64,000 nucleotides of DNA from Pandoraea sputorum (GTDB lineage Bacteria > Pseudomonadota > Gammaproteobacteria > Burkholderiales > Burkholderiaceae): NCBI RefSeq assembly GCF_000814845.2, contig NZ_CP010431.2:2542001-2606000 (forward strand). Reading direction: 5' to 3'. The position numbers were made by a program, and so were the translations under genes. Of this stretch, positions 9,689 through 24,659 are shown one piece after another (the first letter of the stretch is position 1; each line of letters starts with the position of its first letter). The notes below the pieces were generated by a model. It was not told where the DNA came from. It saw only the letters and a list, made by a program, of their open reading frames with translations, and did not search any database.

Positions 9689-10342
9689 TCAGTCGTCCTT
9701 GCGGCTATGTTGCAGACGTTCGAGGACGTGGATGCTCAGGCGTGCTGTGTGACTGCGCATCGCGTTATACGCGGCTTCGGCATCGGCGGCGAGCACGGCT
9801 TCCACGACGCGGTCGTGTTCGTCGAACGACACGGTGAAGCGCTCTTCGACGTCGGACTGGGCCGCCCGGAACGGGGCGAGCCGTTCGCGGTGGCTGTCGA
9901 TCAGGGCCATCAGCGTCTTGTTCTGGGTACCTGCGCTCAGCAACTGATGGAACTCGCGGTTGAGCGCGAGATAACCGGCTTCGTCTCCCGCATCCATGCA
10001 CTGCTTGCTCTGGACGTGAATCATCTCCAGTTGCTTCTTTTGCATGGCGCTCATGCGCTGTGCGCTCAGACGGCAGCAAAGCGCGTCGAGTTCGCACATC
10101 GCTTCGAGCATGTCGGACAGGTCATCAATGCTGATGCTCGCGACGACACCGCCCTTGTGCGGCGTGAGTTCGATGAGCCCACGGGCGTTTAGCTCGCGCA
10201 GTGCTTCGCGAATGGGCGTGCGCGACGCCTTGAAGCGCTCCGCCAGCACGACTTCTTCAAGCTTCTGGCCGGGGGGCAGGCGGCCGTCGATGATTTCGCC
10301 CGTCAGTACGCGGCAGATCCGTGCGGCAATGGTTTCGGCCAT
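9689..10342 (-). CDS. GntR-family regulator, FCD (FadR) subfamily
   Basis: 217-aa transcriptional regulator with an N-terminal winged HTH (LPPGQKLEEVVLAERFKASRTPIREALRELNARGLIEL). An all-helical FCD ligand domain follows, with the conserved metal-type residues in NREFHQLL and a later His cluster (SFDEHDRVV, MRSHTARLS). It sits divergently from a VOC-protein gene at the edge of a 15-kb catabolic cluster. A TGTATACA palindrome lies 43 bp upstream of its own start, and related palindromes lie before three other promoters in the cluster. It is therefore the likely regulator of the whole set and of itself. FCD regulators usually release DNA on binding an organic acid; the ligand is unknown. Confidence 0.9.
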   Translation of the reverse strand: MAETIAARICRVLTGEIIDGRLPPGQKLEEVVLAERFKASRTPIREALRELNARGLIELTPHKGGVVASISIDDLSDMLEAMCELDALCCRLSAQRMSAMQKKQLEMIHVQSKQCMDAGDEAGYLALNREFHQLLSAGTQNKTLMALIDSHRERLAPFRAAQSDVEERFTVSFDEHDRVVEAVLAADAEAAYNAMRSHTARLSIHVLERLQHSRKDD

Positions 10343-10384
10343 GCTGGTTTATCTCGCTCCGTAGATGCGTCGTTTTAGTCGGAT

Positions 10385-10392
10385 TGTATACA
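10385..10392. promoter_or_regulatory. Putative GntR operator 1 (own promoter)
   Basis: Perfect palindrome TGTATACA within ATTGTATACAT, 43 bp upstream of the GntR start codon. It fits the T-n-G-T-(n)-A-C-n-A pattern known for FadR-type regulators with a two-base centre. Confidence 0.6.
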
Positions 10393-10495
10393 TGCGGATT
10401 ATACGAGTATTTTTCCTTATGTTCTCGTGTAAAAAGGGCGCAACGCCATAAGGGGCGGGGTTTGATCGATTTTCGGAACGGTGGAAAGCTCAATG

Positions 10496-10523
10496 TGCAT
10501 TCAAAAATACGTTTTTGAATGCA
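10496..10523. repeat. Perfect 12-bp inverted repeat, 4-base centre
   Basis: TGCATTCAAAAA (10496-10507) and its exact complement TTTTTGAATGCA (10512-10523) flank the centre TACG. It lies in the divergent promoter region between the GntR and VOC genes, 11 bp before the second operator. Its size and AT-rich arms suit an operator for a dimeric regulator. It could also form an RNA hairpin, and read on either strand the stem ends in five A or T bases. Confidence 0.85.
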
Positions 10524-10534
10524 ATATGCTGAGA

Positions 10535-10544
10535 TAGTATACAT
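10535..10544. promoter_or_regulatory. Putative GntR operator 2 (VOC promoter)
   Basis: TAGTATACAT shares the GTATAC core and one complete half-site with the other three sites. It lies about 60 bp upstream of the VOC-protein start at 10605. Confidence 0.5.
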
Positions 10545-10604
10545 AAGCCATTCGCCGGAGGTGCCGGCGAGGCCTATCACCTCAATCCGAAGGAGACATT
10601 CATC

Positions 10605-11072
10605 ATGGCCAAACTGCGTCACATTGCGCTTTCCGTGCCGGACCCATGGAAGGCAGCCGAGTTCTACATGCAGGCGTTCGATTTCAAGAAGGTCGGGGAG
10701 ACGGACTCCTCGCTCGCCCGGGGCGTCTACCTCTCGGACGGCGTCATCAACCTCGCGCTGCTCAACTATAAGAACGACGAAGCCGCGGGCGACCGCGGCC
10801 GCGAGTTCGTCGGCCTGCATCACATCGGCATCTGGGTGGAAGACGTGGCTGCCACGCGCGCGAAGATCGAGGCCGCTGGCGGACGCTACTACATGGGCGA
10901 AGTGCCGGTGAAGAGCAACATCTTCTACGAAGTGAAGTTCTTCGACCCGAACGGCGTGATCTTTGACGTCACCGCGCACGGCTGGGGCGGCGCTTCGAAA
11001 GACGGCACCGGCAACGACAACGCGCCGAAGCTGCGCCACGAAGGTCTCCAGGCCGACCGCAGCGGACTTTGA
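10605..11072 (+). CDS. VOC-family (glyoxalase/dioxygenase-fold) protein
   Basis: 155-aa vicinal-oxygen-chelate protein with two beta-alpha-beta-beta-beta repeats. Candidate metal ligands are His6 (LRHIALSV), His72/His73 (LHHIGIWV) and, at the usual Glu position, Asp121 (NGVIFDVTAHGW). A Glu-to-Asp change at the third ligand is uncommon and leaves lyase, isomerase or dioxygenase chemistry open. A strong GAAGGAGA site precedes the ATG. It is divergent from the GntR gene and preceded by a GntR-type palindrome, and a long hairpin follows it. It is the first gene of the presumed regulon and may modify the substrate or a toxic intermediate. Confidence 0.82.
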   Translation: MAKLRHIALSVPDPWKAAEFYMQAFDFKKVGETDSSLARGVYLSDGVINLALLNYKNDEAAGDRGREFVGLHHIGIWVEDVAATRAKIEAAGGRYYMGEVPVKSNIFYEVKFFDPNGVIFDVTAHGWGGASKDGTGNDNAPKLRHEGLQADRSGL

Positions 11073-11114
11073 TCGGCACGCGCCGCATCTCGACATCCCC
11101 CACGGTAGTGCCCC

Positions 11115-11168
11115 GAATCGCCGTCGGCCACCTCGCGCGCGTTGCGCGAGGTGTGTCGGCGGCGATTC
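11115..11168 (+). terminator. Nested hairpin after the VOC gene
   Basis: Outer arms GAATCGCCG (11115-11123) and CGGCGATTC (11160-11168) enclose an inner perfect 10-bp stem CACCTCGCGC/GCGCGAGGTG (11129-11138, 11144-11153). This is a very stable structure 40 bp after the stop codon. No T-run follows, so termination would be imperfect or Rho-assisted; it may instead protect the mRNA 3' end. Confidence 0.6.
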
Positions 11169-11276
11169 ATCATCCAAAGTCCTAAGGGGTAACCCGCTAT
11201 AAAAAAATAGCCCGTTTGTATAAGCAAATAGCAGTAGAAATTCAATTTCTTTGATATGTATAATTCGTCGAAAGAT

Positions 11277-11284
11277 TGTATACA
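11277..11284. promoter_or_regulatory. Putative GntR operator 3 (porin promoter)
   Basis: TGTATACA within ATTGTATACATACAA, 80 bp upstream of the porin start codon. The core is identical to the site at the GntR promoter. Confidence 0.58.
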
Positions 11285-11364
11285 TACAACGGGCGAGCGG
11301 CAGACATCCCGGCAGTTAAACAGGGGAGGCGTCGCAAATAAAACGAGAAACATCAGGAGACAGC

Positions 11365-12414
11365 ATGAAGAAGCGAGTGTTGTGTGCATTGCTGCTGGGT
11401 GCAATGCAGGGCGGTGCGTACGCGCAGTCTTCCGGGGGTGTCACGCTCTCGGGGTTCATCGACCTGAACATGGAGCAACTGTGGGGGTCGGGCGCGAATG
11501 GCGGCAAGGTCACGAGAATGTCCAGTGGTGGGCTGAACAATTCGCGTTTCAACCTGAGCGGTTATGAAGAACTGGGCGGTGGCAATCGCGCGTTCTTCAC
11601 GTACGAGCCGATGTTCTCAGCCAACAACGGCACACAATCGACGCAGGCGCGTCAGTCGTTCGTGGGGATCAAGGGGCCGTGGGGTGATCTGTCGTTGGGC
11701 CGTCAGTTCACGCCGTCGTACTGGATCGCGGGTTACGCCGATCCGAGCTGGGCGGCCGACTTCAGTATGGTCAACAACATGGAGTTCTTCTACGCCTCGT
11801 ATCGCGTCGACAACTCCATCCAGTACAAGACGCCCACCTGGTACGGCCTGAACGCGCGCTTCATGGCGACGACCGGTGTGGGCGACGGCACGCGCTCCGG
11901 TCGCTTCTACTCGGCTGCATTGGAATATCGCCAGGGCGGCATTTTCCTCGGCGCGGTCAGTGAGCTGCAATACACCCGTGACATCTACTCGGCCAGCCAG
12001 ATCCGCTCGTCGCGCGACAACTACTTCGCCGCGACGTACAAGTTCGGCAGCGTCGAACCGACGCTTATCTATCACACGTACAACGGCTACTACGCTTATC
12101 CGCCGTATGTCGCGTTCAACGTGCGCGGCTGGGACATTCAGGCTGGCGTGCGTTATGCGCTGACCGACCGCCATCGTTTCTACGCGAGCTTTGTCCACCG
12201 TCAGGACGACGACAACAAGGCGCTCTCCAACGCCAACGGCTTTGTCGTCGGTTACATGTACGGCTTGTCGAAGCGCACCACGCTTTATGCGACCTACGCT
12301 CGCGTGCAGCACAGCAACGACACGACCGTTCACTATCCGGTGACGTTCCAGGTCACACCGACCGGCTCGCAGAACCCGTCGGGTGTGCAGTTCGGTATTC
12401 GTCATGCGTTCTGA
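11365..12414 (+). CDS. Gram-negative porin (OmpC/Omp32-type)
   Basis: Outer-membrane trimeric porin of 349 aa. A signal peptide (MKKRVLCALLLGAMQGGAYA, cleaved before QSSGG) is followed by the beta-proteobacterial pattern VTLSGFIDLNMEQLWG, GYEELGGGNRAFFTYEPMF, SFVGIKGPWGDLSLGRQFTP and a terminal aromatic residue (GVQFGIRHAF). It has a good AGGAGA ribosome site. A GntR-type operator upstream and the catabolic genes around it suggest a substrate-inducible channel for the compound degraded by the cluster. The LVIVD-repeat gene follows after about 110 bp with no terminator between them. Confidence 0.92.
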   Translation: MKKRVLCALLLGAMQGGAYAQSSGGVTLSGFIDLNMEQLWGSGANGGKVTRMSSGGLNNSRFNLSGYEELGGGNRAFFTYEPMFSANNGTQSTQARQSFVGIKGPWGDLSLGRQFTPSYWIAGYADPSWAADFSMVNNMEFFYASYRVDNSIQYKTPTWYGLNARFMATTGVGDGTRSGRFYSAALEYRQGGIFLGAVSELQYTRDIYSASQIRSSRDNYFAATYKFGSVEPTLIYHTYNGYYAYPPYVAFNVRGWDIQAGVRYALTDRHRFYASFVHRQDDDNKALSNANGFVVGYMYGLSKRTTLYATYARVQHSNDTTVHYPVTFQVTPTGSQNPSGVQFGIRHAF

Positions 12415-12527
12415 CGCAGACGTCGTTCGCCATCAGCATTTGCGCATTTCCGCTTTTCAGTAATACGCCGCCGGCGAGGGTCGTTCACAGCGCCGGCGAG
12501 AAGACTTTTGAGATGAAGGAGGAAGAC

Positions 12528-14332
12528 ATGTTTCGCATGCAGACACGCGGTGCAGCCCCCGCCATGTTGACAGCCACGGCAGTGCTCGCGGCGCTTACGA
12601 TGACGCTCGCCGCGCACGCCTCGGCCCCCGAGAGCGCGCCGGTCGCGCAGCCGGCGCCCGCCGATAATCCGTCGGGTACGCCTGGCACGCCGAACGTCAA
12701 AGACCCGTATCTGGCCGGATGGCTGCGCCTCACGCCGGACCGCGAACCGAAGCCGCTTAAGGCCGGTGTCGATTACGGCATGGACCCGGCCACAGGCAAG
12801 TTCATCTGGCCGAAGGCTACGCCCGAAATTCACACAGGCCAGCGCTTCCCCGGGGAACTGACCACGTGGGACAAGAAGAGCTATTCGAAGAACGTAAAGG
12901 TGCTGGCGTTCTATCCGGGCGTCGATTCGCCGTTCCACGCGTGGAATAACATCGCCGACTTTAACGGCAAACGTTATCTCTACATCCACGACCGCGACTA
13001 TCTGCGCATCATGGACGTGACCGATCCGGCCAACGGTAAAGTCGTCTACTCGAAGGGCGGTGTGTGGGGGCCGAAGGGATCGAGCGAGAAGTTCGACGCC
13101 AACAACGTGCAGGACTACCTTGGCGGCGCCACCATCGTGTGGAACAAGAAGCTGGGCAAGCCGATCCTCGTCGCGTCGTTCGAAATCGGCCGCTACGGGC
13201 TGATGCAGGACAAGTCGAAGCAGCCGGACAAGGTCGCAGCGCAACGCAACTACAACTCGCTCAAGGGCTTCAAGGTCTTCGTGATGGATGGCCCATTGCC
13301 GTCCGACTGGAAGCTGATCGCCACGCGCACGACCGACTACAAGCATCCCAATGCGCCTGTCGGTCAGCAGCAAGGCTCGGGTTCGCTCGACTCGCCAGAG
13401 TTCTACGGCGGCAAGTACATGATTCTCTCGTCGGCGCCGGACGACAGCTACGCGCTCACGGAATACCCGAACTATCTCTACTCGCCGGGCTACCAGGTGT
13501 GGGATATGTCGGACCCCGCGAATCCGAAGTTCATCTCCCAGATTTCGGTGCCGGGCCAGATTCTCGGCAACGAAGAGCATGAGCAGGCGTACCTGCAAAA
13601 CCCGCGCGCGGGCAACCGCACGTCGTGGATGGGCTCGCGTATGCCGATCTTCCTGCCCAAGCCGCTGGAGCAGGGGGCAAGGTGGGCTTCGGCGCGATGG
13701 GGGGCCTCGGTCTGTGGTCGTTCGATCTGAGCGATCCGGCGCATCCGAAGGTCGTTGGCAACGTGAACACGGCACCGAGCTTCGCAGGCACGGAATATGA
13801 CAACGCCGACGTCAGCCAGTACGAGCGCACGGGTTACGTGTTCACCAGTGGTTACCCGATGAACCGCGACTGCTACGAGCCGTACAAGGACATCTTCGTC
13901 GTCGACGCGCGCAATCCCGCGAAGATGAAAGTGGCTGGCAAGCTGCCGGAGCCGGAAGTGCCCGAAGGCGCGCCGTTCACCAGCTTCTGTCAGCGTGGCG
14001 GCAACTACGGTCCGAAGCGTTCGAACTCCATCGGTCAGCCGGGTACGTGGCGTCAGGGCATCGTGCCGTATTCGTTCTACAACGCGGGCGTGCAGATTTT
14101 CGACGTGAAGGACCCGACCAAACCGCGTATCGCCGGTTACTTCGTGCCGGGCCTGGCCGACGAGACGGAACTGCCCGTCTACACGCTGGGTAAGGGCGTG
14201 TTCGCGATGTACACGGAGTACGACCGCAACATCATGTGGGCCTTCACCGAGAACGGCGCCTACGCGTTGTCGAGCCCGCTGCTGGGTGAGCCGGTGATGG
14301 GCGCACCGGCAAAGCCGTACCCGGCACGCTAA
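12528..14332 (+). pseudogene. LVIVD-repeat exported protein, frameshifted
   Basis: Secreted beta-propeller-like protein with LVIVD repeats. A signal peptide spans about residues 1-33 (MFRMQTRGAAPAM through AHASA). Repeats include YLRIMDVTDPANGKVV, YQVWDMSDPANPKF, LWSFDLSDPAHPKVV and VQIFDVKDPTKPRI. One frame runs from the ATG at 12528 (AAGGAGG upstream) but leaves the family at the G-run 13673-13677 and stops at 13730. The family sequence resumes in the next frame as GKVGFGAMGGLGLWSF and runs to 14332. Adding one G to the five-G run restores a single protein of about 601 aa. This is either a sequencing error in a homopolymer or a genuine recent loss. The function of such proteins is unknown. 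Confidence 0.85.
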
Positions 14333-14424
14333 CGAACGATTCGACGTCAAGGGCGGCGCGACCGGAAGGATCGGTTCGCGTCGTCACCGCCGACTTCACA
14401 GGGCCTCCAAAGCGTGAAGTGTTG

Positions 14425-14469
14425 AAGCGGGCAACCTCCGATGGTCTCCCGGTTGCCCGCTTCTTTTTT
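14425..14469 (+). terminator. Strong intrinsic terminator
   Basis: Perfect 12-bp stem AAGCGGGCAACC (14425-14436) with GGTTGCCCGCTT (14451-14462), a 14-base loop, then CTTTTTTA. It closes the porin-LVIVD transcript. The stop codon of the convergent dehydrogenase lies at its right edge, so it may also slow minus-strand transcription. Confidence 0.9.
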
Positions 14470-15436
14470 ATTTCGACGCGATGCGGTGCCCAACGGAGTT
14501 GACTGCAGCCGGTAGCGACGTGCCAGCGAGATGGGCGCGTACGTTGGCCAGCAGCAGGTCGATCTGGGCTTGTAGTGCCGCGGGAGAGCGGCCTGAGATG
14601 TGCGGCGTGAGCACCACGTTCTCGAGCATGCGCAGTGCGGACGGTACCTCGGGTTCGGTCTCGAAGACGTCGAGCGCGGCACCGGCAATCACGCCGTCGC
14701 AAAGCGCTTCGATCAGCGCCACCGTATCGACCACGCTGCCCCGGGCCACATTGACGAGGAAGCCGTGTGCGCCCAGACGTGCCAGCACGTCAGTGTTCAC
14801 GAGGTGATGCGTGGCCGGACCGCCGGGACAGGCGAGCACGAGGAAGTCGCTCACGTCGGCCAGCGCGCCGATGTCGTCGAAGTACCGCCAGCGACAGTTC
14901 GTGCGGGCTGTGCGCGTGTGATAGCCGATGGACATGCCGAAGGCTTCCGCGCGCGTCGCGATGGCCTGACCGATGTTGCCGAGGCCGACGATGCCGAGTT
15001 GTGCGCCGCTCAGCGTGGGACGCGGTGCGCGATGTTTCGCCCAGCCGCCAGCTTTCACGGCGCGGTCGAGCGTGACGAGCCCACGAGCGCTGGCAAGCAT
15101 CAGCGCGAGTGCGTGATCTGCGACGGTCTCGCCGTTCGTGTTCGGCGCATGCGCCACGGCGATGCCGCGCTGCGTAGCAGCGTCAACGTCGATGTTTTCG
15201 AAGCCCGCGCCGAAGGCGCAGATGAGTTCGAGCTGGGGTAGCGCATCCATTTGCGCAGCCGTGAGGCCGGTGGTGCCGTTCGTGAGCACGAGACGTACAT
15301 GGGGCGTCACGGGGTCGCCAGCGACGCAAAGCAGGGGTGCGTCGACGTCATGCAGACGCAGTCCGGCAGCAAGCAATTGTGCGCGGGCCAACGGTTCGAG
15401 CGGGATGAGATTGAGCAGGAGCGGCATGTCGTTCAT
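14468..15436 (-). CDS. D-isomer-specific 2-hydroxyacid dehydrogenase
   Basis: 322-aa NAD(P)-dependent dehydrogenase that interconverts 2-oxo acids and D-2-hydroxyacids, glyoxylate/hydroxypyruvate reductase type. The Rossmann motif is LGIVGLGNIGQAIATRAEAFG. The catalytic Arg lies in VNVARGSVVD, the Glu in DVFETEPEVP and the His in LTPHISGRSPAA. The ATG at 15436 is preferred over a reading extended to 15481 that runs into promoter sequence; a weak AAGACC precedes it. It is divergent from the FAH-family gene across a 156-bp region with a GntR-type palindrome, so it probably belongs to the same regulon and handles a 2-oxo or 2-hydroxy acid product. Confidence 0.88.
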   Translation of the reverse strand: MNDMPLLLNLIPLEPLARAQLLAAGLRLHDVDAPLLCVAGDPVTPHVRLVLTNGTTGLTAAQMDALPQLELICAFGAGFENIDVDAATQRGIAVAHAPNTNGETVADHALALMLASARGLVTLDRAVKAGGWAKHRAPRPTLSGAQLGIVGLGNIGQAIATRAEAFGMSIGYHTRTARTNCRWRYFDDIGALADVSDFLVLACPGGPATHHLVNTDVLARLGAHGFLVNVARGSVVDTVALIEALCDGVIAGAALDVFETEPEVPSALRMLENVVLTPHISGRSPAALQAQIDLLLANVRAHLAGTSLPAAVNSVGHRIASK

Positions 15437-15486: not shown

Positions 15487-15530
15487 TTGCTATGTATACA
15501 TATGCTATGTATTGTGTTTCAACATAGCAA
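15487..15530. repeat. Three copies of TGCTATGT (two direct, one inverted)
   Basis: TTGCTATGT at 15487-15495, TGCTATGT at 15503-15510, and the inverted copy ACATAGCAA at 15522-15530. The first copy overlaps the TGTATACA palindrome. The direct copies are 15 bp apart and the inverted pair leaves an 11-base spacer. This looks like a compound operator in the divergent promoter of the dehydrogenase and FAH-family genes. Confidence 0.7.
15491..15502. promoter_or_regulatory. Putative GntR operator 4 (divergent promoter)
   Basis: Perfect 12-bp palindrome TATGTATACATA with core TGTATACA at 15493-15500. It lies 55 bp upstream of the dehydrogenase start and 91 bp upstream of the FAH-family start. Confidence 0.6.
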
Positions 15531-15592
15531 TCAAAAAGACAGCCGATACGTGAAAACGAGATCGGTTACCGATGGAAGACAAGGAGGAAGGT

Positions 15593-16549
15593 GTGACCTG
15601 GTTTGGATTGGCAACTTATGAATCGCTGGCGCCGGGCGCCGTCGCCGCTCGTCGTACGGCACTGGTGCAGCACGGCCGTCTGTATGACCTCGACGCGGTG
15701 CTGCATCACATGGGCGCGGGTGCGGAAGACGGTCTCGCGTCGGCACAAGACCTGACGGCGCTGCTCTCGGACTGGTATGTGCATGGCGAGGCTGTGTCGG
15801 CCGCCGTGCGTCGCGCGATGGACGCAGGTGTTCCGGCCAAGGTGGGGGCGCTGGCGACCGACAGCTACCGTCTGTGCGTGCCGTATCAGCCGGGCCGCAT
15901 TTTTGCCACGGCGTCCAACTTCTACGAACACGCGGCGGAAATGGGCACCAAGCTCGCGCCGCGCAGCGAAAGCTCGCCGTACATGTTCATGAAGGCCGAG
16001 ACGAGCGTGACGGCGACCGGTACCGATGTCGTGCTGCCGCCGCATGCCGAGCGCGTCGACTGGGAGGTCGAACTGGCCGTGGTGATCGGGCGTCCGGGCC
16101 GTCATGTGCCGGTCGAACAAGCGCATGAATGGATCGCCGGTTACACCGTTATCAACGACGTGAGCGCACGGGATTTGAACCGTCGCACCGACTATCCGTT
16201 CACGCACGACTGGTTTCGCGGCAAGAGTTTCGATACCTTCGCTCCTCTGGGGCCGTGGTTTGTGCCGCGCGATGTCATTCGCGATCCCCAGAACCTGCGC
16301 ATGACCCTGTCGGTCAACGGCGAGTCGATGCAGGACGACACGACGGCAGGAATGATCTTCAACATTGCGGAGCAGATCGCTTACCTGTCGGAAATCCTCA
16401 CGCTCAAGCCCGGCGATCTGATCGCCACGGGCACGCCGACCGGCGTGGGCATGGGGCGTGGCGTGTATCTCAAGGCGGGTGACGTGATGGTGGCGGGTAT
16501 CGAGGGCATTGGCGCCATCGAGAACCGTGTCGTGGCACAACGCAAATAA
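15593..16549 (+). CDS. Fumarylacetoacetate-hydrolase (FAH) family enzyme
   Basis: 318-aa FAH-fold enzyme; family members cleave, hydrate or decarboxylate 2-oxo/enol acids in aromatic breakdown. Landmarks are the metal-site segment DWEVELAVVIGR, GYTVINDVSARDLN, GKSFDTFAPLGPW and the C-terminal ATGTPTGVGMG. The start is taken as GTG at 15593 because AAGGAGG sits 5 bp before it; the ATG at 15572 would include that ribosome site in the coding region. It heads a co-directional run with an ABC importer, a dioxygenase-like VOC protein, a hydrolase and a DapA-like aldolase. The exact reaction is open. Confidence 0.88.
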   Translation: MTWFGLATYESLAPGAVAARRTALVQHGRLYDLDAVLHHMGAGAEDGLASAQDLTALLSDWYVHGEAVSAAVRRAMDAGVPAKVGALATDSYRLCVPYQPGRIFATASNFYEHAAEMGTKLAPRSESSPYMFMKAETSVTATGTDVVLPPHAERVDWEVELAVVIGRPGRHVPVEQAHEWIAGYTVINDVSARDLNRRTDYPFTHDWFRGKSFDTFAPLGPWFVPRDVIRDPQNLRMTLSVNGESMQDDTTAGMIFNIAEQIAYLSEILTLKPGDLIATGTPTGVGMGRGVYLKAGDVMVAGIEGIGAIENRVVAQRK

Positions 16550-16586: not shown

Positions 16587-17621
16587 ATGCAGCAGTGGCA
16601 GTGGACCCGGCGCTGGTGGACGGCGCTCGCATGTGCCAGCACGATCGGCACGGCAGGGATTGCCGGCGCAGGCGCGTTGTGGGCGACGCCGGTCGCCGCA
16701 CAGGACAAGGTCAAGTTCAACCTCTCATGGCTGCCACAGGGCAGTACCGGCGGCGTGCTCGTCGCGATCAACAAAGGCTATTACCGCGAAGCAGGGCTGG
16801 AGGTATCGGCCATCGTCGGTCACGGCGGGCAACGCACCGTCAACGAAGTCGATCAGGGCCTGTTCGAGTTCGGCTACGGCGACCCGATCAGCGTCATGCT
16901 CAATCGCGCGCAGGGCGGCAAGACGCGGATGGTGGGGTCGATCAATGCGGTCTGGCCCGGCGCGATCTGCTATCTCGCGAAGCCTGGTCGCACCATCACC
17001 AAACCCGCCGACCTGAAAGGCATGTCGATGGGCGGTGGCGGCGCGTCGCCGTTGCAGAACATCGTGCCGGCGTGGCTCAAGGCGAACGGCCTGCCGCCGA
17101 CGTCCGTCAAGCTGCTCCGCCTCGATCCGTCCACGATCAATCCTTCGTTCTTGCAAGGGCGTGTGGATCTGACCGAGTGCTGGGAAGGTGCGAATCTGCC
17201 GGTACTCAAATCGCTGGCGTCGAAGCAGGGCCGCGAGATCGGCTCGCTGCGCTATCGCGATTTCGGGCTGGACATGGTCGGCAACGGCATCGTCACGACC
17301 GAAACGATGATCGCGCAGAAGCCGGATGTGGTGCGTCGCTTCGTGCAGGCAACGTACCGGGGCTATGCCTGGATGCGCGAGCATCCGGAGGAGTCTGCGG
17401 GTGTGATCGTCTCGCAGTACCCGATGCTCGACAAGCAGGTCATGGTCGAACAGATTCGCCAGATCGGTGCGCTGGAGACCGATAGCGAAACGAAGGGCCA
17501 CAAGCCGGGCTGGCTGCCGGTGCCGCGTATGGAGTCCACCGCGAAGTTCGTGCGCGACGCCTTCAATCTCGCGCCGACGCTCAAAGCCACCGACATCTAT
17601 ACCAATCAGTTCGTCGAGTGA
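16587..17621 (+). CDS. ABC transporter substrate-binding protein, NitT/TauT type
   Basis: Periplasmic binding protein of 344 aa in the SsuA/TauA/NMT1-like group. It has a long signal sequence (about residues 1-38, ending PVAAQ), then FNLSWLPQGSTGGVLVAINKGYY, the typical opening of this group. GNGIVTTETMIAQKPDVVRRF is the conserved late segment. The start at 16587 follows AGGAGGAG. Together with the permease (18278) and ATPase (19018) it makes a complete importer, interrupted by a VOC gene. Group members bind sulfonates, nitrate, pyrimidine precursors or aromatic acids; the ligand here should be the starting compound of the cluster. Confidence 0.88.
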   Translation: MQQWQWTRRWWTALACASTIGTAGIAGAGALWATPVAAQDKVKFNLSWLPQGSTGGVLVAINKGYYREAGLEVSAIVGHGGQRTVNEVDQGLFEFGYGDPISVMLNRAQGGKTRMVGSINAVWPGAICYLAKPGRTITKPADLKGMSMGGGGASPLQNIVPAWLKANGLPPTSVKLLRLDPSTINPSFLQGRVDLTECWEGANLPVLKSLASKQGREIGSLRYRDFGLDMVGNGIVTTETMIAQKPDVVRRFVQATYRGYAWMREHPEESAGVIVSQYPMLDKQVMVEQIRQIGALETDSETKGHKPGWLPVPRMESTAKFVRDAFNLAPTLKATDIYTNQFVE

Positions 17622-17640: not shown

Positions 17641-17683
17641 CGATCGCGACCCGATGAGAACTGTTGCAATGCAAGGAGTGGAG

Positions 17684-18241
17684 ATGACAAGCCCCAAACC
17701 CAAACTCAATCCGAAGCGTCTCGGCCATCTGGTGCTGGTCGTACGCGATATTCAGAAGTCGGTGAAGTTCTATACCGAAGTGCTGGGCCTCACGGTCTCC
17801 GACTGGATCGACGACCAGATGGTGTTCCTGCGTGCGGGCAGCGATCACCACGATCTGGCGCTGTCGCAGATTCCGAAGAACTCGCCCGACATCGACGATC
17901 TGCCGCGCTACGGGCGTCCCGGTATGGAGCACTTCTCGTATCTGGTCGACAGCGTCGAGGAGATGGAGAAGGCCGTAGACGTGCTGCGCGCCCATGAGGT
18001 CGAGATCGTGCGCGGCATCGGTCGCCACGGTCCCGGTGCGAACTACTTCCTCGTGTTCAAGGATCCGGACGGCAACAACGTCGAGCTGTATTGCGAGATG
18101 ACGCAGATCGACGCCGAGCATCCGTACGAGGCGAAGGTGTGGGAGCGCAACATCGAGAGCTTCGACCGGTTCCGGTTCGAGCGTTTCGTCGTGCCGCCCC
18201 CGCCGGGGATGGTCAAGGAGAAGTCGGGCGGCAAGGCCTAA
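17684..18241 (+). CDS. VOC-family protein, extradiol-dioxygenase-like
   Basis: 185-aa VOC protein with an intact type-I extradiol-dioxygenase-like metal triad: His15 in LGHLVLVVRD, His83 in GMEHFSYLVD and Glu134 in GNNVELYCE. This matches the 2-His-1-carboxylate arrangement of catechol 2,3-dioxygenase relatives, although single-module proteins of this size also include glyoxalase-type enzymes. The ATG at 17684 has AAGGAG upstream; the longer frame starts inside the previous stop codon. Its place between the binding protein and the permease of one importer implies it acts on the imported compound, perhaps ring opening ahead of the FAH-family enzyme. Confidence 0.82.
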   Translation: MTSPKPKLNPKRLGHLVLVVRDIQKSVKFYTEVLGLTVSDWIDDQMVFLRAGSDHHDLALSQIPKNSPDIDDLPRYGRPGMEHFSYLVDSVEEMEKAVDVLRAHEVEIVRGIGRHGPGANYFLVFKDPDGNNVELYCEMTQIDAEHPYEAKVWERNIESFDRFRFERFVVPPPPGMVKEKSGGKA

Positions 18242-18277: not shown

Positions 18278-19021
18278 ATGAAACGCATCGCACAGACGAT
18301 CGTATTCTGGGGCGTGTTGCTCGCCCTGTGGGAAATGGCCGTGACGTACTTCAAGGTGCAGTCGTACCTGATGCCGCCGCCGTCGGCCATCTTTCGCGCT
18401 GCGTGGGAAGTGCATCCGCAGATGCTCGCGGACACGTGGGTGACGACCGTCGAAGTGCTGACGGGGTTCGTCGCCGCCGTCGCGGGCGGGCTCGTGATCG
18501 GTGTGGTCATCAGCTACAGCGCGTTCGCGCGCCGCACGCTGTATCCGCTCGTCACCGCTTTGCAAAGCATGCCGAAGATCGCGCTCGCGCCGCTCATGAT
18601 CGTGTGGTTTGGTTACGGCTTTGCTTCGAAGCTGGCGTCGACGTTCCTGTTCGCCTTCTTTCCTGTCGTGGTGGCGACGATGGGCGGTCTCGCGTCCGTG
18701 GCACGCAATCTCGACGAGCACTTCCGTGCACTGGGCGCAAGCCCGTGGGACACCTTCTGGCGGCTGTATCTCCCGGCGGCGCTGCCTGCGTTTGCCGACG
18801 GTCTCAAGATCGCCATGCCGCTCGCTGTCATCGGCGCCATCGTCGGTGAGTTCATCGGGTCGGAAGAAGGGCTGGGACATCTGATCGTGTTCGCGTCGGC
18901 AGCGGCACGCACCGACGTGATGTTCGCGGCGATTCTGATGGTGACGTTGCTGGCGGTGGTGCTCTACTGGGCCATCGAACGGCTGGCACGGTTTGTGTGG
19001 TGGCGGGGGATCAACGTATGA
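18278..19021 (+). CDS. ABC transporter permease, NitT/TauT type
   Basis: 247-aa inner-membrane permease with about six hydrophobic helices and the EAA loop (NLDEHFRALGASPWDTFWRLYLPAALPAFADGLKIA) that contacts the ATPase. GAIVGEFIGSEEGLGHLI is the hallmark of the SsuC/TauC group. GGAGGAGA precedes the ATG. Its stop overlaps the ATPase start (ATGA), so the two are translationally coupled. Confidence 0.9.
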   Translation: MKRIAQTIVFWGVLLALWEMAVTYFKVQSYLMPPPSAIFRAAWEVHPQMLADTWVTTVEVLTGFVAAVAGGLVIGVVISYSAFARRTLYPLVTALQSMPKIALAPLMIVWFGYGFASKLASTFLFAFFPVVVATMGGLASVARNLDEHFRALGASPWDTFWRLYLPAALPAFADGLKIAMPLAVIGAIVGEFIGSEEGLGHLIVFASAAARTDVMFAAILMVTLLAVVLYWAIERLARFVWWRGINV

Positions 19022-19878
19022 GCGGTCTGACTAATTCGAAGGCGAATATCGTGACGCCTCTGCATTCGGCGAGCGCAGCGGTTGCCCCGTCCGTCGCTCC
19101 TCAGACGTCGGACGCCATGATCGAAGTGCGCCACATCGACAAGACCTTTCCGGCGAAGAACCGCAAGACTGCGCCGGTGAAGATCCTCGACGACGTATCG
19201 CTCTCTATCGCAGACCAGGAGTTCGTGTCGATTCTTGGCACCAGCGGCTGCGGCAAAAGCACGCTGTTGCGCATCGTGGCGGGCCTGGTGGCGCATGACG
19301 GCGGTGAAGTGCGCGTGGCGGGTCAACGCGTGTCGCGTCCAGTGCCCGAGATCGGCGTCGTCTTTCAGACGAGCAATATGCTGCCGTGGCTCACGGTGCG
19401 CCAGAACCTGCTGCTCGGCACCAGCCTGCGCAAGATTCCGAAGGAGAAGAGCGAGCCGCGTGTGGCGGCGCTGCTGGAGATGTTGGGACTCGCGCAGTTC
19501 GCCGACCACCATCCGCACGAGCTGTCCGGAGGCATGCGTCAACGTGCATCCATCGGCCAGATTCTGGCGCTCGAACCCAAAGTGCTGCTGATGGACGAGC
19601 CGTTCGGTGCGCTCGACGCGCTTACCCGCGACAACCTGAACGTCGAGCTGCTGCGCATCTGGCAGGAGCATCGGCAGACGGTGTTGCTCGTGACGCACAG
19701 CATCGAGGAAGCGGTGTTCCTGTCGGACCGCGTGATCGTGATGTCGGCGCGTCCGGGCAAGGTCGAGCAGGAAGTGGTGATCGATCTGCCGCGTCCGCGC
19801 TCGCCGCAGACGATCAAACAGCATCCGCGCTACGCCGGGTACATCGCGCAGCTTTCGCAGTTGATGGGAGTCTATTGA
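19018..19878 (+). CDS. ABC transporter ATP-binding protein, NitT/TauT type
   Basis: 286-aa ATPase that energises the importer. Walker A is GTSGCGKSTL, the Q-loop is VFQTSNMLPWLTV, the signature is LSGGMRQRASI, Walker B is KVLLMDEPFGALD, and the switch His is in LVTHSIEEAVFLSDRV. An unusual N-terminal extension of about 37 residues (SNSKAN to TSDAM) precedes the first beta strand. Its start overlaps the permease stop and its stop overlaps the hydrolase start (TGATG), so this part of the operon is tightly coupled. Confidence 0.92.
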   Translation: MSGLTNSKANIVTPLHSASAAVAPSVAPQTSDAMIEVRHIDKTFPAKNRKTAPVKILDDVSLSIADQEFVSILGTSGCGKSTLLRIVAGLVAHDGGEVRVAGQRVSRPVPEIGVVFQTSNMLPWLTVRQNLLLGTSLRKIPKEKSEPRVAALLEMLGLAQFADHHPHELSGGMRQRASIGQILALEPKVLLMDEPFGALDALTRDNLNVELLRIWQEHRQTVLLVTHSIEEAVFLSDRVIVMSARPGKVEQEVVIDLPRPRSPQTIKQHPRYAGYIAQLSQLMGVY

Positions 19879-20831
19879 TGGACGGACAGACGCCAGCCGC
19901 CGCCGAGTGGGAAGTCGCGCGCTCGCTCATGCGGGGACTCGGCCCCTCGTGGACCGACGACATCGCTGCGGGACGCCGCGCCGTGCTCGACACCTACACG
20001 CCGTTGCTGGCGAAGGCGTCGGCGGAAGGCTTCGCCGTCGTGCGGGATCTGGCCTATGGTCCGCATGCGCGGCATCGGCTCGACGTCTACCGTCCGACAG
20101 CGTCGGTCGGACCGGCGAGTGCACCCGCATCCGCACCTATTGTGGTCTTCGTACACGGTGGTGGGTTCGTGCGCGGCGATATGAATGCCAACGCGCAGAT
20201 CTACGGCAACGTGCCGCGCTACTTCGCGCGACACGGCTGCGTGGCCGTCAACGTGGAGTATCGGCTTGCGCCGGAAGCCACGTTCCCGGGCGGCGCAGAG
20301 GATGTCGCGCTGGCGATGCAATGGATCCGTGAGCACATCGCGCAATATGCAGGCGAGGGCGGGGCCGACTTGTCCCGCATCCTGCTGATCGGGCATTCGG
20401 CGGGCGGCTCGCACGTCGCCAGCTATCTGTGCGATCCATGTGTGCGTCCGGCGGCACCTGAAGTGGCAGGGGCCGTGCTGATCAGCGCGCGGCTGCGTGC
20501 CGATGTCCTGCCGGACAATCCGAACGCCCCTGGCGTCATCGCCTATTACGGCGACGACGCAGCGCGTCATGAGGCGAACGCCCCGATGGCGCACGTCGAT
20601 GCCATGCCGGTGCCGGTGATGACGGTCGTTGCCGAGTTCGAGAATCCCCATCTCGATACTTACGCGCTCGAATTCTGTCATCGGCTCGCGAAGCGCGATG
20701 CGCACGCGCCGCGCTTCATTCAGGTGCACGACCACAACCACACGTCGGTCGTTGCGCATCTCGACACGGGCGACGATTCGCTCGGCCGCGAAATTCTGCA
20801 ATTCCTGCACGAAATCAACCCATCGCCCTGA
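19878..20831 (+). CDS. Alpha/beta hydrolase (hormone-sensitive-lipase-like)
   Basis: 317-aa hydrolase of the HSL-like (alpha/beta hydrolase-3) group, cytoplasmic. The oxyanion motif is HGGGF (about 93-97), the nucleophile is Ser174 in GHSAGG and the likely catalytic His is His288 in HDHNHTS. The acid is probably within VVAEFENPHLD. It would cleave a carboxylic ester, a lactone or an N-formyl group (kynurenine formamidase has the same fold and HGGxW/F motif). The start is fixed by overlap with the ATPase stop. It stands between the importer and the DapA-like aldolase. Confidence 0.85.
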   Translation: MDGQTPAAAEWEVARSLMRGLGPSWTDDIAAGRRAVLDTYTPLLAKASAEGFAVVRDLAYGPHARHRLDVYRPTASVGPASAPASAPIVVFVHGGGFVRGDMNANAQIYGNVPRYFARHGCVAVNVEYRLAPEATFPGGAEDVALAMQWIREHIAQYAGEGGADLSRILLIGHSAGGSHVASYLCDPCVRPAAPEVAGAVLISARLRADVLPDNPNAPGVIAYYGDDAARHEANAPMAHVDAMPVPVMTVVAEFENPHLDTYALEFCHRLAKRDAHAPRFIQVHDHNHTSVVAHLDTGDDSLGREILQFLHEINPSP

Positions 20832-20852
20832 TGCGGTCCGCGCCTGCCTGAA

Positions 20853-20876
20853 TCGCTGAACGGGGACGTTCAGCGA
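20853..20876 (+). other. Intra-operon hairpin with GNRA-type loop
   Basis: Perfect 10-bp stem TCGCTGAACG/CGTTCAGCGA closed by a GGGA tetraloop, between the hydrolase and DapA-like genes. No T-run follows, so it is an RNA stability or processing candidate rather than a terminator. Confidence 0.6.
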
Positions 20877-20917
20877 CGGCAGCGCCGCAACTCTCCCCCT
20901 CTCTCTTAGGAACTGTC

Positions 20918-21841
20918 ATGGTCGATCACGAATTGACCGGGGCGTTTGCGCCCGTCGTCACGCCGTTTCATGCGGATCTGACGCCGGATGCCCCCCGTTT
21001 TCTCGCGCATTGCGAATGGTTGCTCTCGCAAGGTGTCGGTCTCGCGCCGTTTGGCACGAACAGCGAAGCGAACTCGCTCGGACTCGGCGAGCGCATGGCG
21101 TTGCTCGACCTGCTCGTCGACAACGGTCTGGACACGCGGCGCATGCTGCCCGGCACCGGTTGCTGCTCGTTGCCGGAAACGGTGGCGCTCACACGACATG
21201 CCGTCGAGCGTGGCTGCGCCGGTGTGCTGATGCTGCCGCCGTTCTTCTACAAGGGCATCTCCGACGACGGTCTTTACGCCTACTACGCCCGCGTGATCGA
21301 GCAAGTCGCCGATGCGCGTTTGCGCCTGTACCTGTATCACATCCCTGCGCTGTCGGGCGTGCCGATCACGCTGCCGGTGATCGAGCGGCTGATTCGCGAC
21401 TTCCCGCAAACGGTCGTTGGCATCAAGGACAGTTCGGGTGACTGGAACAATCTGAACGCCATGCTCGACGCCTTCCCCGGTTTCGGCATCTTCCCGGCGT
21501 CCGAGTCGCTCGTGTCGCGGGCGTCGGCCAAAGGTGCGAAGGGATGCATTTCGGCGACGGTCAACGTCAATCCGCAAGTCATCGGACGGCTGTGCCGCGA
21601 GTGGGCGGGCGATACGAGTGACACGGGTGACACGGGCCCTGCGCTTCAGGCGCAAGCGGATGCGGTGCGCAGCATCGTGCAGTCGTACCCCATGATCCCG
21701 GCGCTCAAGGCGGTGCTGGCGTCGCATCGCGACGATCCGGCGTGGTCGCGCGTGCGTCCGCCGCTCACGCAGTTGTCGGACGAGCAACACGAGCGGCTGC
21801 TTGCGCAGTTGGCCGCTTGTGGTTTCACGTTGCCGGGTTAA
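20918..21841 (+). CDS. DapA-family (class I, Schiff-base) aldolase/synthase
   Basis: 307-aa TIM-barrel enzyme of the dihydrodipicolinate synthase family. The Schiff-base Lys170 is in VVGIKDSSGDW and Tyr140 in LYLYHIPALSG. The usual GTTGES loop is changed to GTNSEANSL, and the Arg that holds the dicarboxylate in true DapA (PSRTG) is missing (PALSG). It is therefore a catabolic aldolase, hydratase-aldolase or lyase, not lysine biosynthesis. A short repeated insert (DTSDTGDTG, about 21610-21637) from imperfect DNA repeats lies in the helical tail. It would split or build a pyruvate-type unit at the end of the pathway. Confidence 0.85.
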   Translation: MVDHELTGAFAPVVTPFHADLTPDAPRFLAHCEWLLSQGVGLAPFGTNSEANSLGLGERMALLDLLVDNGLDTRRMLPGTGCCSLPETVALTRHAVERGCAGVLMLPPFFYKGISDDGLYAYYARVIEQVADARLRLYLYHIPALSGVPITLPVIERLIRDFPQTVVGIKDSSGDWNNLNAMLDAFPGFGIFPASESLVSRASAKGAKGCISATVNVNPQVIGRLCREWAGDTSDTGDTGPALQAQADAVRSIVQSYPMIPALKAVLASHRDDPAWSRVRPPLTQLSDEQHERLLAQLAACGFTLPG

Positions 21842-21847
21842 GCGACG

Positions 21848-23206
21848 ATGCGCGGCGCGTTGCGGTATCGGTATCGGTTCTCACGCCGACGGGACACGAG
21901 TCAGGCGACACGTTCGGGCACTACGCGCGCTGGTGCGCGTATGCCCGGCGCGGTGCTGGCGATGGCCGTCGGACTCGGCGCTTGCGAGATGTCGCAGGCG
22001 CAGGTGCAGATCTACGGGCATCTCACGCCGATGACGGACTGGGTCAGCGTGAGCGGACGTCAGGTAACGGCCGCCGCGCCGCGCCCGACGCAAGCGCCCG
22101 CAGGCGCGATCAACGTGCCGGAGATGAGCGGCACACGCATGCTCTCGAGCATTTCGTACTTCGGCATGCGAGGCAAGGAAGATCTCGGCGACGGCTATGC
22201 CGCGATCTGGCAAATCGAAACGCCGGTCTCCATCGACGGCAAGGCCGTCGGCGCCATCGGCAATCGCAACTCGAACGTCGGGCTGCAGGGGCCGTTCGGC
22301 ACGGCGTTTCTGGGTAACTGGGACACGCCGTATCAGTGGTCGACGCTATCCGTCGGCTCGCCGGTGCGCAATCCCTACACGGGCGACCTCAGCACCATCC
22401 TGAGCAATCCCGGCTTCAACGTGCCGAACACGACGACGCAATCGGGGCGCGTCAACAACGCCTCGGATGCGACGTTCAACCGCCGTCAGGGCAACAGCAT
22501 TCAGTACTGGACACCTGAGTGGTACGGGCTGCAAATGCGGTTTTCGTACTCGCTGTCGAACGGCAGCGTCACGACACCGGCAGGCAGCATTTCACCCCAG
22601 GTGTTCGGCGCGGGGCTGGAGTACGTGAACGGTCCGCTGCGCGTGCGTTACGCGTACGAGATGCACAAGGACTACTTCGGACTCGCGTGGCTCGGCGCAC
22701 CGGCGAGTGCGAATCCGTCCAACGTGGGTTCACGTGCGACGGGATCGCGCGACGACGGACACAAAGTGCTCGTCGTCTTCACGTATGCCAACACAAAGTG
22801 GGTGGCGGGCTGGGACCGGCTGACATATCGCACGGACGATGGCACCAGCGGCAACCTCAACCACTACCGCCGCGACGCCGTCTACGCGATGGTCCAGCAC
22901 TTCTTCGGCGGAGGAAAGCACTCCATATGGCTCGGTGGCGGCTATGCGATGAACGGGTCGTGCTCGCGCGTGGGCGGTGGGGTGTGCAGCACCGCCGACC
23001 TCGGCGCGACGCAGATGAACCTCGGCTACCGCTACGACTTCTCGAAACGCACCGACGTGTACCTCGCCTATTACCAGGTCATCAACCGGGCGTGGGGCAG
23101 CTATGGCTTCTCGCCACGTCCTAACTTCAGCGCCACCAATGGCGGCGCCGCTCCGCCTGGGGCGCACTACCGGGGCATCGGCTTCGGCATCGAACACACC
23201 TTTTAG
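21848..23206 (+). CDS. Gram-negative porin (second in the cluster)
   Basis: Outer-membrane porin, up to 452 aa. The mature part starts near QVQIYGHLTPMTDWVS, and porin landmarks follow (SISYFGMRGKEDLGDGYAAIWQIETPV, GNRNSNVGLQGPFGTAFLGNWDTPYQ, RQGNSIQYWTPEWYGLQMRFSY, terminal GIGFGIEHTF). The start is uncertain. The reading from 21848 gives a long Arg-rich lead before the hydrophobic signal segment, while Met at 21941 begins directly at MPGAVLAMAVGLGACEMSQA but lacks a positive n-region. Neither has a clear ribosome site. It follows the DapA-like gene by 6 bp and may be coupled to it. Confidence 0.85.
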   Translation: MRGALRYRYRFSRRRDTSQATRSGTTRAGARMPGAVLAMAVGLGACEMSQAQVQIYGHLTPMTDWVSVSGRQVTAAAPRPTQAPAGAINVPEMSGTRMLSSISYFGMRGKEDLGDGYAAIWQIETPVSIDGKAVGAIGNRNSNVGLQGPFGTAFLGNWDTPYQWSTLSVGSPVRNPYTGDLSTILSNPGFNVPNTTTQSGRVNNASDATFNRRQGNSIQYWTPEWYGLQMRFSYSLSNGSVTTPAGSISPQVFGAGLEYVNGPLRVRYAYEMHKDYFGLAWLGAPASANPSNVGSRATGSRDDGHKVLVVFTYANTKWVAGWDRLTYRTDDGTSGNLNHYRRDAVYAMVQHFFGGGKHSIWLGGGYAMNGSCSRVGGGVCSTADLGATQMNLGYRYDFSKRTDVYLAYYQVINRAWGSYGFSPRPNFSATNGGAAPPGAHYRGIGFGIEHTF

Positions 23207-23249
23207 TCATTTCAATACCGCAGTACCGCAAGGAATATAGGAGACGATC

Positions 23250-24659
23250 TTGAGTACGACACAACCAGGCTTCGACAGCATTGTCGAGCGAGAAAAGGGA
23301 CTGCACCGCGGCCTCACCAGCGGGCAGTTATCGATGATTGCGATTGGCGGTGCGATCGGCACCGGCCTCTTTCTGGGTAGCGCATTCGCCATCGGCTTTG
23401 CCGGGCCGAGCGTCCTGCTGAGCTATGCCATCGGCGGTGCGATTGCGCTGCTGCTCATGGGTTGCCTCGCGGAGATGACCGTGGCGCACCCGACGTCAGG
23501 CTCGTTCGGCGCGTACGCCGAGCACTACATCGGGCCACTGGCCGGGTTTCTGGTGCGCTACGGCTACTGGTCGTCGATCGTCTTTGCGGTCGGCACGGAA
23601 GTCACGGCGATTGCCGTCTACATGAAGTACTGGTTTCCGGCCGTGCCGGGCTGGTACTGGATCGTAGGCTTCTCGGTCGGTCTCATCGCGATCAATGCGG
23701 CGAGCGTCAAAGTGTTCGGCGCGGTCGAGTATGCGTTCTCGATGCTCAAGATCGTGGCCATCGTCGCGTTCCTGATTCTCGGCGCGTACATCGTGTTTCG
23801 TGCGCCGGCCGAGAGTGGCATCGGGCTGGCGAACTACACGTCACACGGCGGCTTCTTCCCTAAGGGGGCGTGGGGCATGTGGGTGGCGGTGATCGTGTCG
23901 ATCTTCAGCTATCTGAGCATCGAGATGATTGCCGTGGCGGCGGGCGAGGCGCAGGATCCGCAGCGCGCGATCACCCGAGCCTTCCGCGCGACGATGTTCC
24001 GTCTCGTGTTCTTCTATCTGCTCACGCTGGCGCTCACGCTCGCCATCGTGCCGTGGAACGCCGCAGGTGAGGACGGTAGTCCGTTCGTGAAGGTGATGGC
24101 CGCAACGCATATTCCGGGCGCTGCGGGCGTGATCAATCTGGTGATTCTGGTCGCAGCGTTGTCCGCGATGAACAGTCAGCTCTACATCACCACGCGCATG
24201 ATGTTCTCGCTCTCGCGTGCAGGGTATGCGCCGCGCCGCTTCGGTGAAGTCAGCCGCAACGGTGTGCCGGTCGCCGCGCTCATGCTCTCGACCATCGGAA
24301 TTGCATTGGCTGTGGCGCTTAACGTGCTTGCTCCGCAGGCATCGTTCACGCTGATGATGTCGGTCTCGATGTTCGGCGCAATGTTCACGTGGCTGATGAT
24401 CTTCGTCACGCATCTGTTCTTCCGCCGTGCGCACGACGCGAAATCGCTGAGCTTTCGCATGTGGGGGTATCCATACGCCAGTCTGGCGGGCGCGTTGCTG
24501 ATGCTGGCGACGCTCGTCACGACCTACTTCACCGACGAGTTCCGTATGACGCTGGTCTACGGCGTGCCGTTCGTGATCGCCTTGTCGGTGGTGTATGCGC
24601 TTTGGTACCGCCAGCGTGGCAACGCCGCTGCTGTTCCTGCTCAGGGGCAGGGTAACTGA
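23250..24659 (+). CDS. APC-superfamily amino-acid permease
   Basis: 469-aa, 12-helix inner-membrane permease of the amino-acid transporter family (AAT/GABA permease-like). The opening GLTSGQLSMIAIGGAIGTGLFLGSAFAI is diagnostic, and the conserved helix-8 to -9 loop EAQDPQRAITRAF is present. The start is TTG at 23250, preceded by TAGGAGA at 23238-23244; no better ATG exists. It follows the porin on the same strand and ends at a hairpin. In the cluster it could import an amino-acid-like substrate or export a product. Confidence 0.9.
   Translation: MSTTQPGFDSIVEREKGLHRGLTSGQLSMIAIGGAIGTGLFLGSAFAIGFAGPSVLLSYAIGGAIALLLMGCLAEMTVAHPTSGSFGAYAEHYIGPLAGFLVRYGYWSSIVFAVGTEVTAIAVYMKYWFPAVPGWYWIVGFSVGLIAINAASVKVFGAVEYAFSMLKIVAIVAFLILGAYIVFRAPAESGIGLANYTSHGGFFPKGAWGMWVAVIVSIFSYLSIEMIAVAAGEAQDPQRAITRAFRATMFRLVFFYLLTLALTLAIVPWNAAGEDGSPFVKVMAATHIPGAAGVINLVILVAALSAMNSQLYITTRMMFSLSRAGYAPRRFGEVSRNGVPVAALMLSTIGIALAVALNVLAPQASFTLMMSVSMFGAMFTWLMIFVTHLFFRRAHDAKSLSFRMWGYPYASLAGALLMLATLVTTYFTDEFRMTLVYGVPFVIALSVVYALWYRQRGNAAAVPAQGQGN

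Follow-up and report, generated by a model that had tools for sequence, protein, structure and literature searches.

Products of the kynurenine pathway serve as signalling and neuroactive compounds in animals, and the literature that we found contains little on the bacterial removal of its branch products. Among the nearest described systems is the 3-hydroxyanthranilate/2-aminomuconate pathway encoded by the onb genes of Cupriavidus strains ST-14 and CH34, genes which presumably also bear the name nba. The kpi pathway for 4-hydroxypyridine in Arthrobacter IN13 joins a ring-cleaving dioxygenase, a hydrolase and an FAH-family protein, according to the part of that report available to us (PMC7356986). 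In the accessible part of another report, an FCD-type GntR regulator of Agrobacterium (Atu1419 type) binds the operator ATGTATACAT (PMC7797058). Here we describe a catabolic block of ~15 kb at positions 9689-24659 of a 64,000-nucleotide window of Pandoraea sputorum (2,542,001-2,606,000 of one 5.74-Mb contig, NZ_CP010431.2). It comprises, in order, genes for a GntR regulator (minus strand), VOC1, porin1, a β-propeller protein, a 2-hydroxyacid dehydrogenase (minus strand), an FAH-family protein, an ABC substrate-binding protein, VOC2, an ABC permease, an ABC ATPase, an α/β hydrolase, a DapA-like protein, porin2 and an amino-acid permease, the VOC2 gene being placed within those of the ABC importer. 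An initial annotation of this DNA had named all of these families except the β-propeller protein, and each was found at the position given for it.

The block is probably a GntR-controlled module that imports and degrades an aromatic compound of the kynurenine family, the product of which would enter the 3-hydroxyanthranilate pathway encoded elsewhere in the genome. This reading draws on gene families, conservation and an operator footprint, and on the co-occurrence of the block with 3-hydroxyanthranilate genes and its physical linkage to them, all of which are visible in the DNA itself; the suggested tie to kynureninase and 3-hydroxyanthranilate catabolism is new relative to the initial annotation. 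The author of that annotation knew of no described pathway with precisely this gene set, and we likewise found no description of the cluster in the open-licence literature.

Conservation of the core block

Searching species genomes with VOC2 yielded 38 loci, which together with the window made 39 sets, some on short contigs, for clustering at a minimum of 38% identity over 60% of length. Twelve loci are from Pandoraea; others are from Ralstonia, Trinickia, Paraburkholderia, Collimonas, Paucibacter, Undibacterium, Herbaspirillum, Pelomonas, Massilia, Roseateles, Duganella and other Burkholderiales or betaproteobacterial records, in addition to three from Pigmentiphaga and one metagenome-assembled genome (MAG) each from Rhodospirillales and Rhizobiales. 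Between the window and Pandoraea commovens, VOC2 shares 99% identity. VOC2 is present in 38 of the 39 sets, the FAH and binding proteins in 37 each, the ABC permease in 36, GntR in 34, VOC1 in 32, and the 2-hydroxyacid dehydrogenase, α/β hydrolase and DapA-like protein in 30 each; the ABC ATPase cluster also covers 36 sets, and it drew in unrelated ATPases too. These genes, namely GntR, VOC1, the dehydrogenase, FAH, the ABC importer with VOC2 inside it, the hydrolase and the DapA-like gene, form a core whose order is kept in many Burkholderiales genera, which is more than chance would give. The blocks of Pigmentiphaga and the alphaproteobacterial MAGs are reduced, with several core genes missing. 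A synteny check proposed with the initial annotation thus found the core conserved as a block and not just as fragments in unrelated contexts, the outcome that would have spoken against the initial proposal.

According to third-party annotation, plasmids of Ensifer PDNC004 and Diaphorobacter HDW4B hold GntR, 2-hydroxyacid dehydrogenase, VOC, α/β hydrolase, DapA-family, RidA, malonic semialdehyde reductase, FAH and a second VOC gene within ~12 kb. In two alphaproteobacterial MAGs (L071 and L072), the reduced block is accompanied by genes for an aspartate-dehydrogenase-like protein and a FAD_binding_3 hydroxylase, to which L072 adds an RraA-like aldolase; none of these occurs in the window block, and the hydroxylase may mark a hydroxylation step of a related pathway. 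A plasmid of Caballeronia SBC2 (L081) encodes a relative of the α/β hydrolase with 50% identity, accompanied by GntR and porin genes; 2Fe-2S genes and one for a ring-hydroxylating dioxygenase lie next to these, in what is a different and possibly related catabolic cluster.

Linkage to the 3-hydroxyanthranilate pathway

The gene of 3-hydroxyanthranilate dioxygenase (HAAO) was searched for at an E-value limit of 1e-20 in the block-bearing genomes, and VOC2 was called at 1e-40 or better in the family and order sets. HAAO is present in 28 of 29 block-bearing genome handles, or in 27 of 28 if G175 and G443, whose identical coordinates mark them as one assembly, are counted once; the sole genome without it is a 3.2-Mb MAG (G449). 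Genomes with both span Burkholderiales, Pigmentiphaga and Alphaproteobacteria. Against a background of 19 HAAO-bearing genomes out of 300 in the order, which include all three with VOC2, HAAO occurs in 27 of 150 genomes of the family: in 14/14 with VOC2 compared to 13/136 without it (Fisher P of 1e-12). Given this near-obligate partner, the simplest view is that the block would make 3-hydroxyanthranilate, or a substrate of kynureninase, from an imported tryptophan-derived aromatic.

Physical linkage was also observed. In Cupriavidus metallidurans CH34 (L076 and L123) and in the genomes G387 and G369, one contiguous stretch holds the block, kynureninase, HAAO, ACMSD and the genes leading from 2-aminomuconate to pyruvate, together with a permease beside kynureninase that is 80-84% identical to the amino-acid permease of the window. 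The CH34 locus has no ABC importer genes, and carries a different binding-protein gene instead. In this strain the onb genes and kynU were named for 3-hydroxykynurenine, and the available part of the report is silent on the adjoining block (PMC8879955). Among the 26 non-Pandoraea loci, kynureninase lies inside or beside the block in five (that of L061 scores 330 bits against an NCBIfam cut-off of 246), and genes of the 2-aminomuconate operon adjoin it in six, as they also do in Burkholderia arboris. No HAAO, ACMSD or 2-aminomuconate gene lies in the window; the P. sputorum genome has a single HAAO match at 1,460,592 and kynureninase at 1,265,817. Around the former (L106, 1,452,001-1,472,000), an HAAO-ACMSD operon precedes genes for an ABC importer of the branched-chain type and for a second α/β hydrolase, by eye of the kynurenine-formamidase type.

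A predicted GntR regulon

The regulator at the left end of the block (9689-10342, minus strand, 217 residues) belongs to the FCD family (Pfam FCD 8.7e-24, GntR 1.2e-14). Palindrome search placed a predicted operator, TGTATACA, in the gap between GntR and VOC1 (10385-10392; kept in relatives), a second copy 5' of porin1 (11277-11284) and a third (TATGTATACATA) in the gap between the dehydrogenase and FAH (15493-15500; also seen in relatives), where the Agrobacterium operator ATGTATACAT is found at 15492-15501. TGTATACA occurs at seven places in the 5.74-Mb genome, and the probability that three of the seven would fall by chance in these 15 kb is ~6e-7. Across 42 loci (the 38 VOC2 loci and four plasmid loci), 71 sites lie in 32 loci, none within a called gene though called coding sequence makes up 86% of the total; for two other palindromes of similar composition, 40 of 45 and 10 of 16 sites lie inside genes. 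Among 64 such palindromes, TGTATACA is the most frequent in these loci (71 sites, next 45, median 2), and it numbers 37 in the 30 non-Pandoraea loci (next 33, median 2). Sites were also located 5' of kynureninase in three loci (L062, L065 and L069). The loci thus share an operator, to which we infer that the block GntR binds, and the block is predicted to be one regulon under its own GntR. With three operators and a core conserved as a block, this supports the earlier proposal of a coherent catabolic cluster, with co-regulation by its GntR as a prediction.

Outside Pandoraea, a RidA family is present in 15 of 26 loci, the member of L052 belonging to the adjoining 2-aminomuconate operon, and a RutE-like malonic semialdehyde reductase is present in 12 of 26. 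The RutE of L055 scores above its NCBIfam cut-off (292 bits compared to 152), and the operon RidA of L052 below it (75 compared to 106). In gene calls at the Pandoraea loci, the window included, RidA and RutE are absent from the block; a RutE homologue with 53% identity lies elsewhere in the genome, at 3,498,363. Since the non-Pandoraea blocks often own RidA, malonic semialdehyde reductase and aldolase, which would suffice for a complete lower pathway, the block alone might degrade an aromatic N-heterocycle or an aminophenol completely, by extradiol cleavage, deformylation, hydrolysis of an enamine and an FAH-catalysed hydrolysis in the manner of the kpi pathway with its similar set of enzymes, and the 3-hydroxyanthranilate link would then reflect a shared habitat or inducer. 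We find this rather doubtful: HAAO in all but one block-bearing genome and operators 5' of kynureninase are hard to obtain from habitat alone, the window block has neither RidA nor RutE, and KpiC and PydA are not VOC proteins as far as the accessible text describes them (PMC7356986).

VOC2 and the accompanying enzymes

VOC2 (17669-18241, plus strand as for all genes below unless noted; an alternative start at 17684 is possible) matches a Pfam VOC-type domain (6.4e-28) and, in the PDB, 3b59 and homoprotocatechuate dioxygenase. The predicted model adopts a VOC fold with a mean predicted local distance difference test (pLDDT) score of 74.7. An H-H-E VOC protein had been proposed initially, and VOC2 fits that description with H20, H88 and E139 (190-residue form) as the metal site: H88 and E139 are conserved in 38/38 sequences and H20 in 23/23 rows with letters there, all three being invariant in a 21-row alignment. 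Alignment to 3b59 further identified a second-sphere histidine pair, H61 and H120 (38/38), which we take to correspond to H195 and H241 of BphC in position and role. VOC2 therefore looks like a one-domain extradiol dioxygenase, though it falls below the curated equivalog cut-offs (82 bits compared to 321 for HpaD, with lower scores for C23O and BphC). VOC1 (10605-11072) is a small VOC-fold protein (Pfam Glyoxalase 5.2e-13) with conserved H6, H73 and D121.

The FAH-family hydrolase (15572-16549; Pfam 2.8e-76) is nearest to HpaG and L-2,4-diketo-3-deoxyrhamnonate hydrolase (NCBIfam; PDB 1gtt and 8gsr), and misses the cut-off of the named rhamnonate-pathway enzyme (220 bits compared to 500). Its residues H120, E123, E165, E167 and D196 are conserved in at least 97% of 36 rows, of which we take H120 and E123 to be the His-x-x-Glu dyad and the acidic residues to be metal ligands. 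The DapA-superfamily aldolase-like protein (20918-21841; Pfam DHDPS 2.2e-36) retains K170, presumably the Schiff-base lysine, and has Leu, Phe or Met at position 145 in 30/30 rows, the site, as we assume, of the dicarboxylate arginine of Escherichia coli DapA; the absence of this arginine, as annotated initially, was thus confirmed. A GTNSE motif replaces the usual GTTGE in 29/29 rows with letters there, in the same 30-row alignment. With GTNSE, no arginine and 109 bits compared to a cut-off of 206, it was not assigned as a 4-hydroxy-tetrahydrodipicolinate synthase. The α/β hydrolase (19878-20831; Pfam Abhydrolase_3 6e-21) is of the HSL/Abhydrolase_3 type with HGGG and GHSAGG motifs and a C-terminal His, its nearest PDB entry being 4zrs (2.9e-42). 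The D-2-hydroxyacid dehydrogenase (14468-15436, minus strand; Pfam 2-Hacid_dh_C 3.5e-51) has conserved R232, E261 and H279.

These families would also suit a sugar-acid or furanone pathway under an FCD-GntR, with FAH as a 2,4-diketo-3-deoxy acid hydrolase and the DapA-like protein as a 2-keto-3-deoxy acid aldolase, in addition to the 2-hydroxyacid dehydrogenase. The rhamnonate enzyme among the FAH matches agrees with this, as does a 57% DapA relative in Roseivivax, which has a mandelate-racemase-family gene as its neighbour and an IlvD/Edd gene close by. Yet the block has no usual sugar-acid dehydratase among its Pfam matches, and the extradiol-like VOC protein and the kynureninase and HAAO links indicate aromatics, so that such a pathway seems improbable.

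Uptake genes and neighbouring features

The ABC importer consists of an NMT1-type substrate-binding protein (16587-17621; Pfam NMT1 4.3e-37), a permease (18278-19021; BPD_transp_1 2.9e-32) and an ATPase (19018-19878; ABC_tran 9.3e-32). Porin1 (11365-12414; Porin_4 5.7e-42) is present in 19/39 sets. Porin2 (21848-23206, or from 21941; Porin_4 7e-31) and the amino-acid permease (23250-24659), which was assigned through NCBIfam and its homology to the permease beside kynureninase, are found together in this position in 11/39 sets. The closest NCBIfam models of the latter are of the GABA/ProY/ThrP type, all below cut-offs. The initial annotation had placed porins and permease in the cluster; they are indeed there, but porin2 and the permease hold this place in Pandoraea only (10/12 loci, compared to 0/26 elsewhere). 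Of the two Pandoraea exceptions, one contig ends before them and P. terrae (L050) lacks them; weaker porins (27-33% identity) lie near some non-Pandoraea blocks.

These uptake genes also bear on the idea that the block detoxifies reactive by-products of 3-hydroxyanthranilate or tryptophan breakdown and is not a pathway for a carbon source. Two glyoxalase-fold proteins in the block, RidA homologues in relatives and the nearly constant presence of HAAO would accord with such a role, but dedicated porins and an ABC importer imply uptake and not the clearance of an internal by-product, and we regard it as very improbable.

The secreted LVIVD β-propeller protein (12513-14332) is encoded in a frame broken near 13.66 kb into open reading frames (ORFs) at 12513-13730 and 13625-14332; the break either marks a pseudogene specific to this strain or is an error in the sequence. 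The gene is present in 19/39 sets, with intact copies of 557-610 residues in 18 other loci; that of Pandoraea commovens has an LVIVD Pfam match and a predicted propeller model. A small cytochrome c gene adjoins it in L062, L067, G387 and CH34, of which the L067 copy alone was domain-checked; together the two hint at a periplasmic redox role. To the left of the block, two neighbouring small ORFs (8238-9496, minus strand; families F13 and F15) have relatives in Pandoraea loci only, and we assume that they resemble AidA/PixA-type inclusion proteins. Further left lies an amidohydrolase gene (6760-7995, minus strand), by eye of the cytosine-deaminase type; the fetched Pandoraea loci end short of it.

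A proposed pathway

In the pathway that we propose, GntR would keep the block repressed as long as neither substrate nor intermediate is present, and the substrate would enter through the porins and the NMT1-type importer. VOC2 together with VOC1 may then open or rearrange the ring in the manner of an iron-dependent dioxygenase, and FAH would hydrolyse an acylpyruvate-type 2,4-diketo acid, setting free a short 2-oxo acid along with 3-hydroxyanthranilate or a substrate of kynureninase. The side-chain fragment could be cleared by the α/β hydrolase, the DapA-like aldolase and the 2-hydroxyacid dehydrogenase, joined by RidA and the RutE-like reductase outside Pandoraea, while kynureninase and 3-hydroxyanthranilate dioxygenase would carry the remainder to 2-aminomuconate and central metabolism. 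Both the pathway order and the substrate are what we infer from this gene set, and the side-chain enzymes are named here in no set order. A 2,4-diketo-acid hydrolase acting on an intermediate of the 3-hydroxyanthraniloyl-pyruvate type points to xanthurenate, our guess for the lead candidate, and a phenoxazinone such as an ommochrome, another candidate, would explain kynureninase plus a second ring-cleaving enzyme.

We hold more tentatively the specific proposal that the cluster serves to degrade a tryptophan product of the quinoline or phenoxazine type (xanthurenate, or else an ommochrome, cinnabarinate or similar phenoxazinone), in which a new, one-domain and tyrosine-less class of VOC oxygenases opens the ring, FAH releases 3-hydroxyanthranilate or feeds kynureninase, and the GntR regulon of some relatives includes that kynureninase; as a whole this is possible.

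Several observations weigh against the assignment to kynurenine-family aromatics. At genus level the co-occurrence within the family rests on 3 of 25 genera (hypergeometric P of 0.037). The control gene boxB, present in 11 of 28 block-bearing genomes, is enriched in the family as well (10/14 with VOC2 compared to 40/136 without it, P of 0.003), so that catabolic richness accounts for part of the HAAO link, but not all of it. The co-occurrence could be ecological, and since HAAO is inseparable from the other genes of its operon, it may be the lower pathway to which the block is linked. The HAAO and kynureninase of P. sputorum lie ~1.1 and ~1.3 Mb from the block and have no perfect operator. As for the regulon, 34 of the 71 TGTATACA sites come from the 12 closely related Pandoraea loci, 10 of the 42 loci have no perfect site, and the three loci with sites 5' of kynureninase are close relatives (Paucibacter and Roseateles). 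In an NCBIfam scan of ten window proteins, no block protein reached the cut-off of an enzyme model. Finally, VOC2 has a valine (V129, 38/38) at position E-10, where the active-site tyrosine of extradiol enzymes would be expected, presumably Y250 of BphC and Y257 of homoprotocatechuate 2,3-dioxygenase. The ring-opening VOC protein proposed initially therefore has support, qualified by the absence of this tyrosine.

For the kynurenine-family reading, a conserved block with a predicted operator, almost always accompanied by HAAO, yields a short list of candidate substrates and a regulator. The block also supplies an uncharacterised VOC subfamily and a DapA subfamily, each with clear signature residues.

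Comparison with known systems

Compared to the type I extradiol dioxygenases (homoprotocatechuate 2,3-dioxygenase, BphC and the one-domain L-DOPA dioxygenase 6on3), VOC2 shares the fold, the H-H-E site and the second-sphere histidine pair, but is a one-domain protein with valine in place of tyrosine and an identity of ~20-35%. With the tyrosine missing, it was not assigned to that family and is likened to it in its working only. The kpi pathway follows the same logic of ring cleavage, hydrolase and FAH, but differs in its amidohydrolase-family dioxygenase and flavin hydroxylase; the accessible part of the report names a permease, KpiP, and mentions no aldolase or ABC importer (PMC7356986). Membership in a kpi or pyd group was rejected, as no LigB- or amidohydrolase-type ring-cleaving domain, the families given in the same partial source, is among the Pfam matches of the block (PMC7356986). 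The Atu1419-type FCD GntR regulators have the same operator ATGTATACAT as the block, whereas Atu1419 governs hydroxycinnamate degradation in Agrobacterium, with a ligand and targets that differ from those of the block GntR so far as the available text describes them (PMC7797058). The 3-hydroxyanthranilate/2-aminomuconate pathway is tied to the block by position: its genes adjoin the block in CH34, G387, G369, Trinickia (L052) and Burkholderia arboris (L079), whereas in P. sputorum HAAO lies in the same genome but outside the window, which holds no gene of that pathway.

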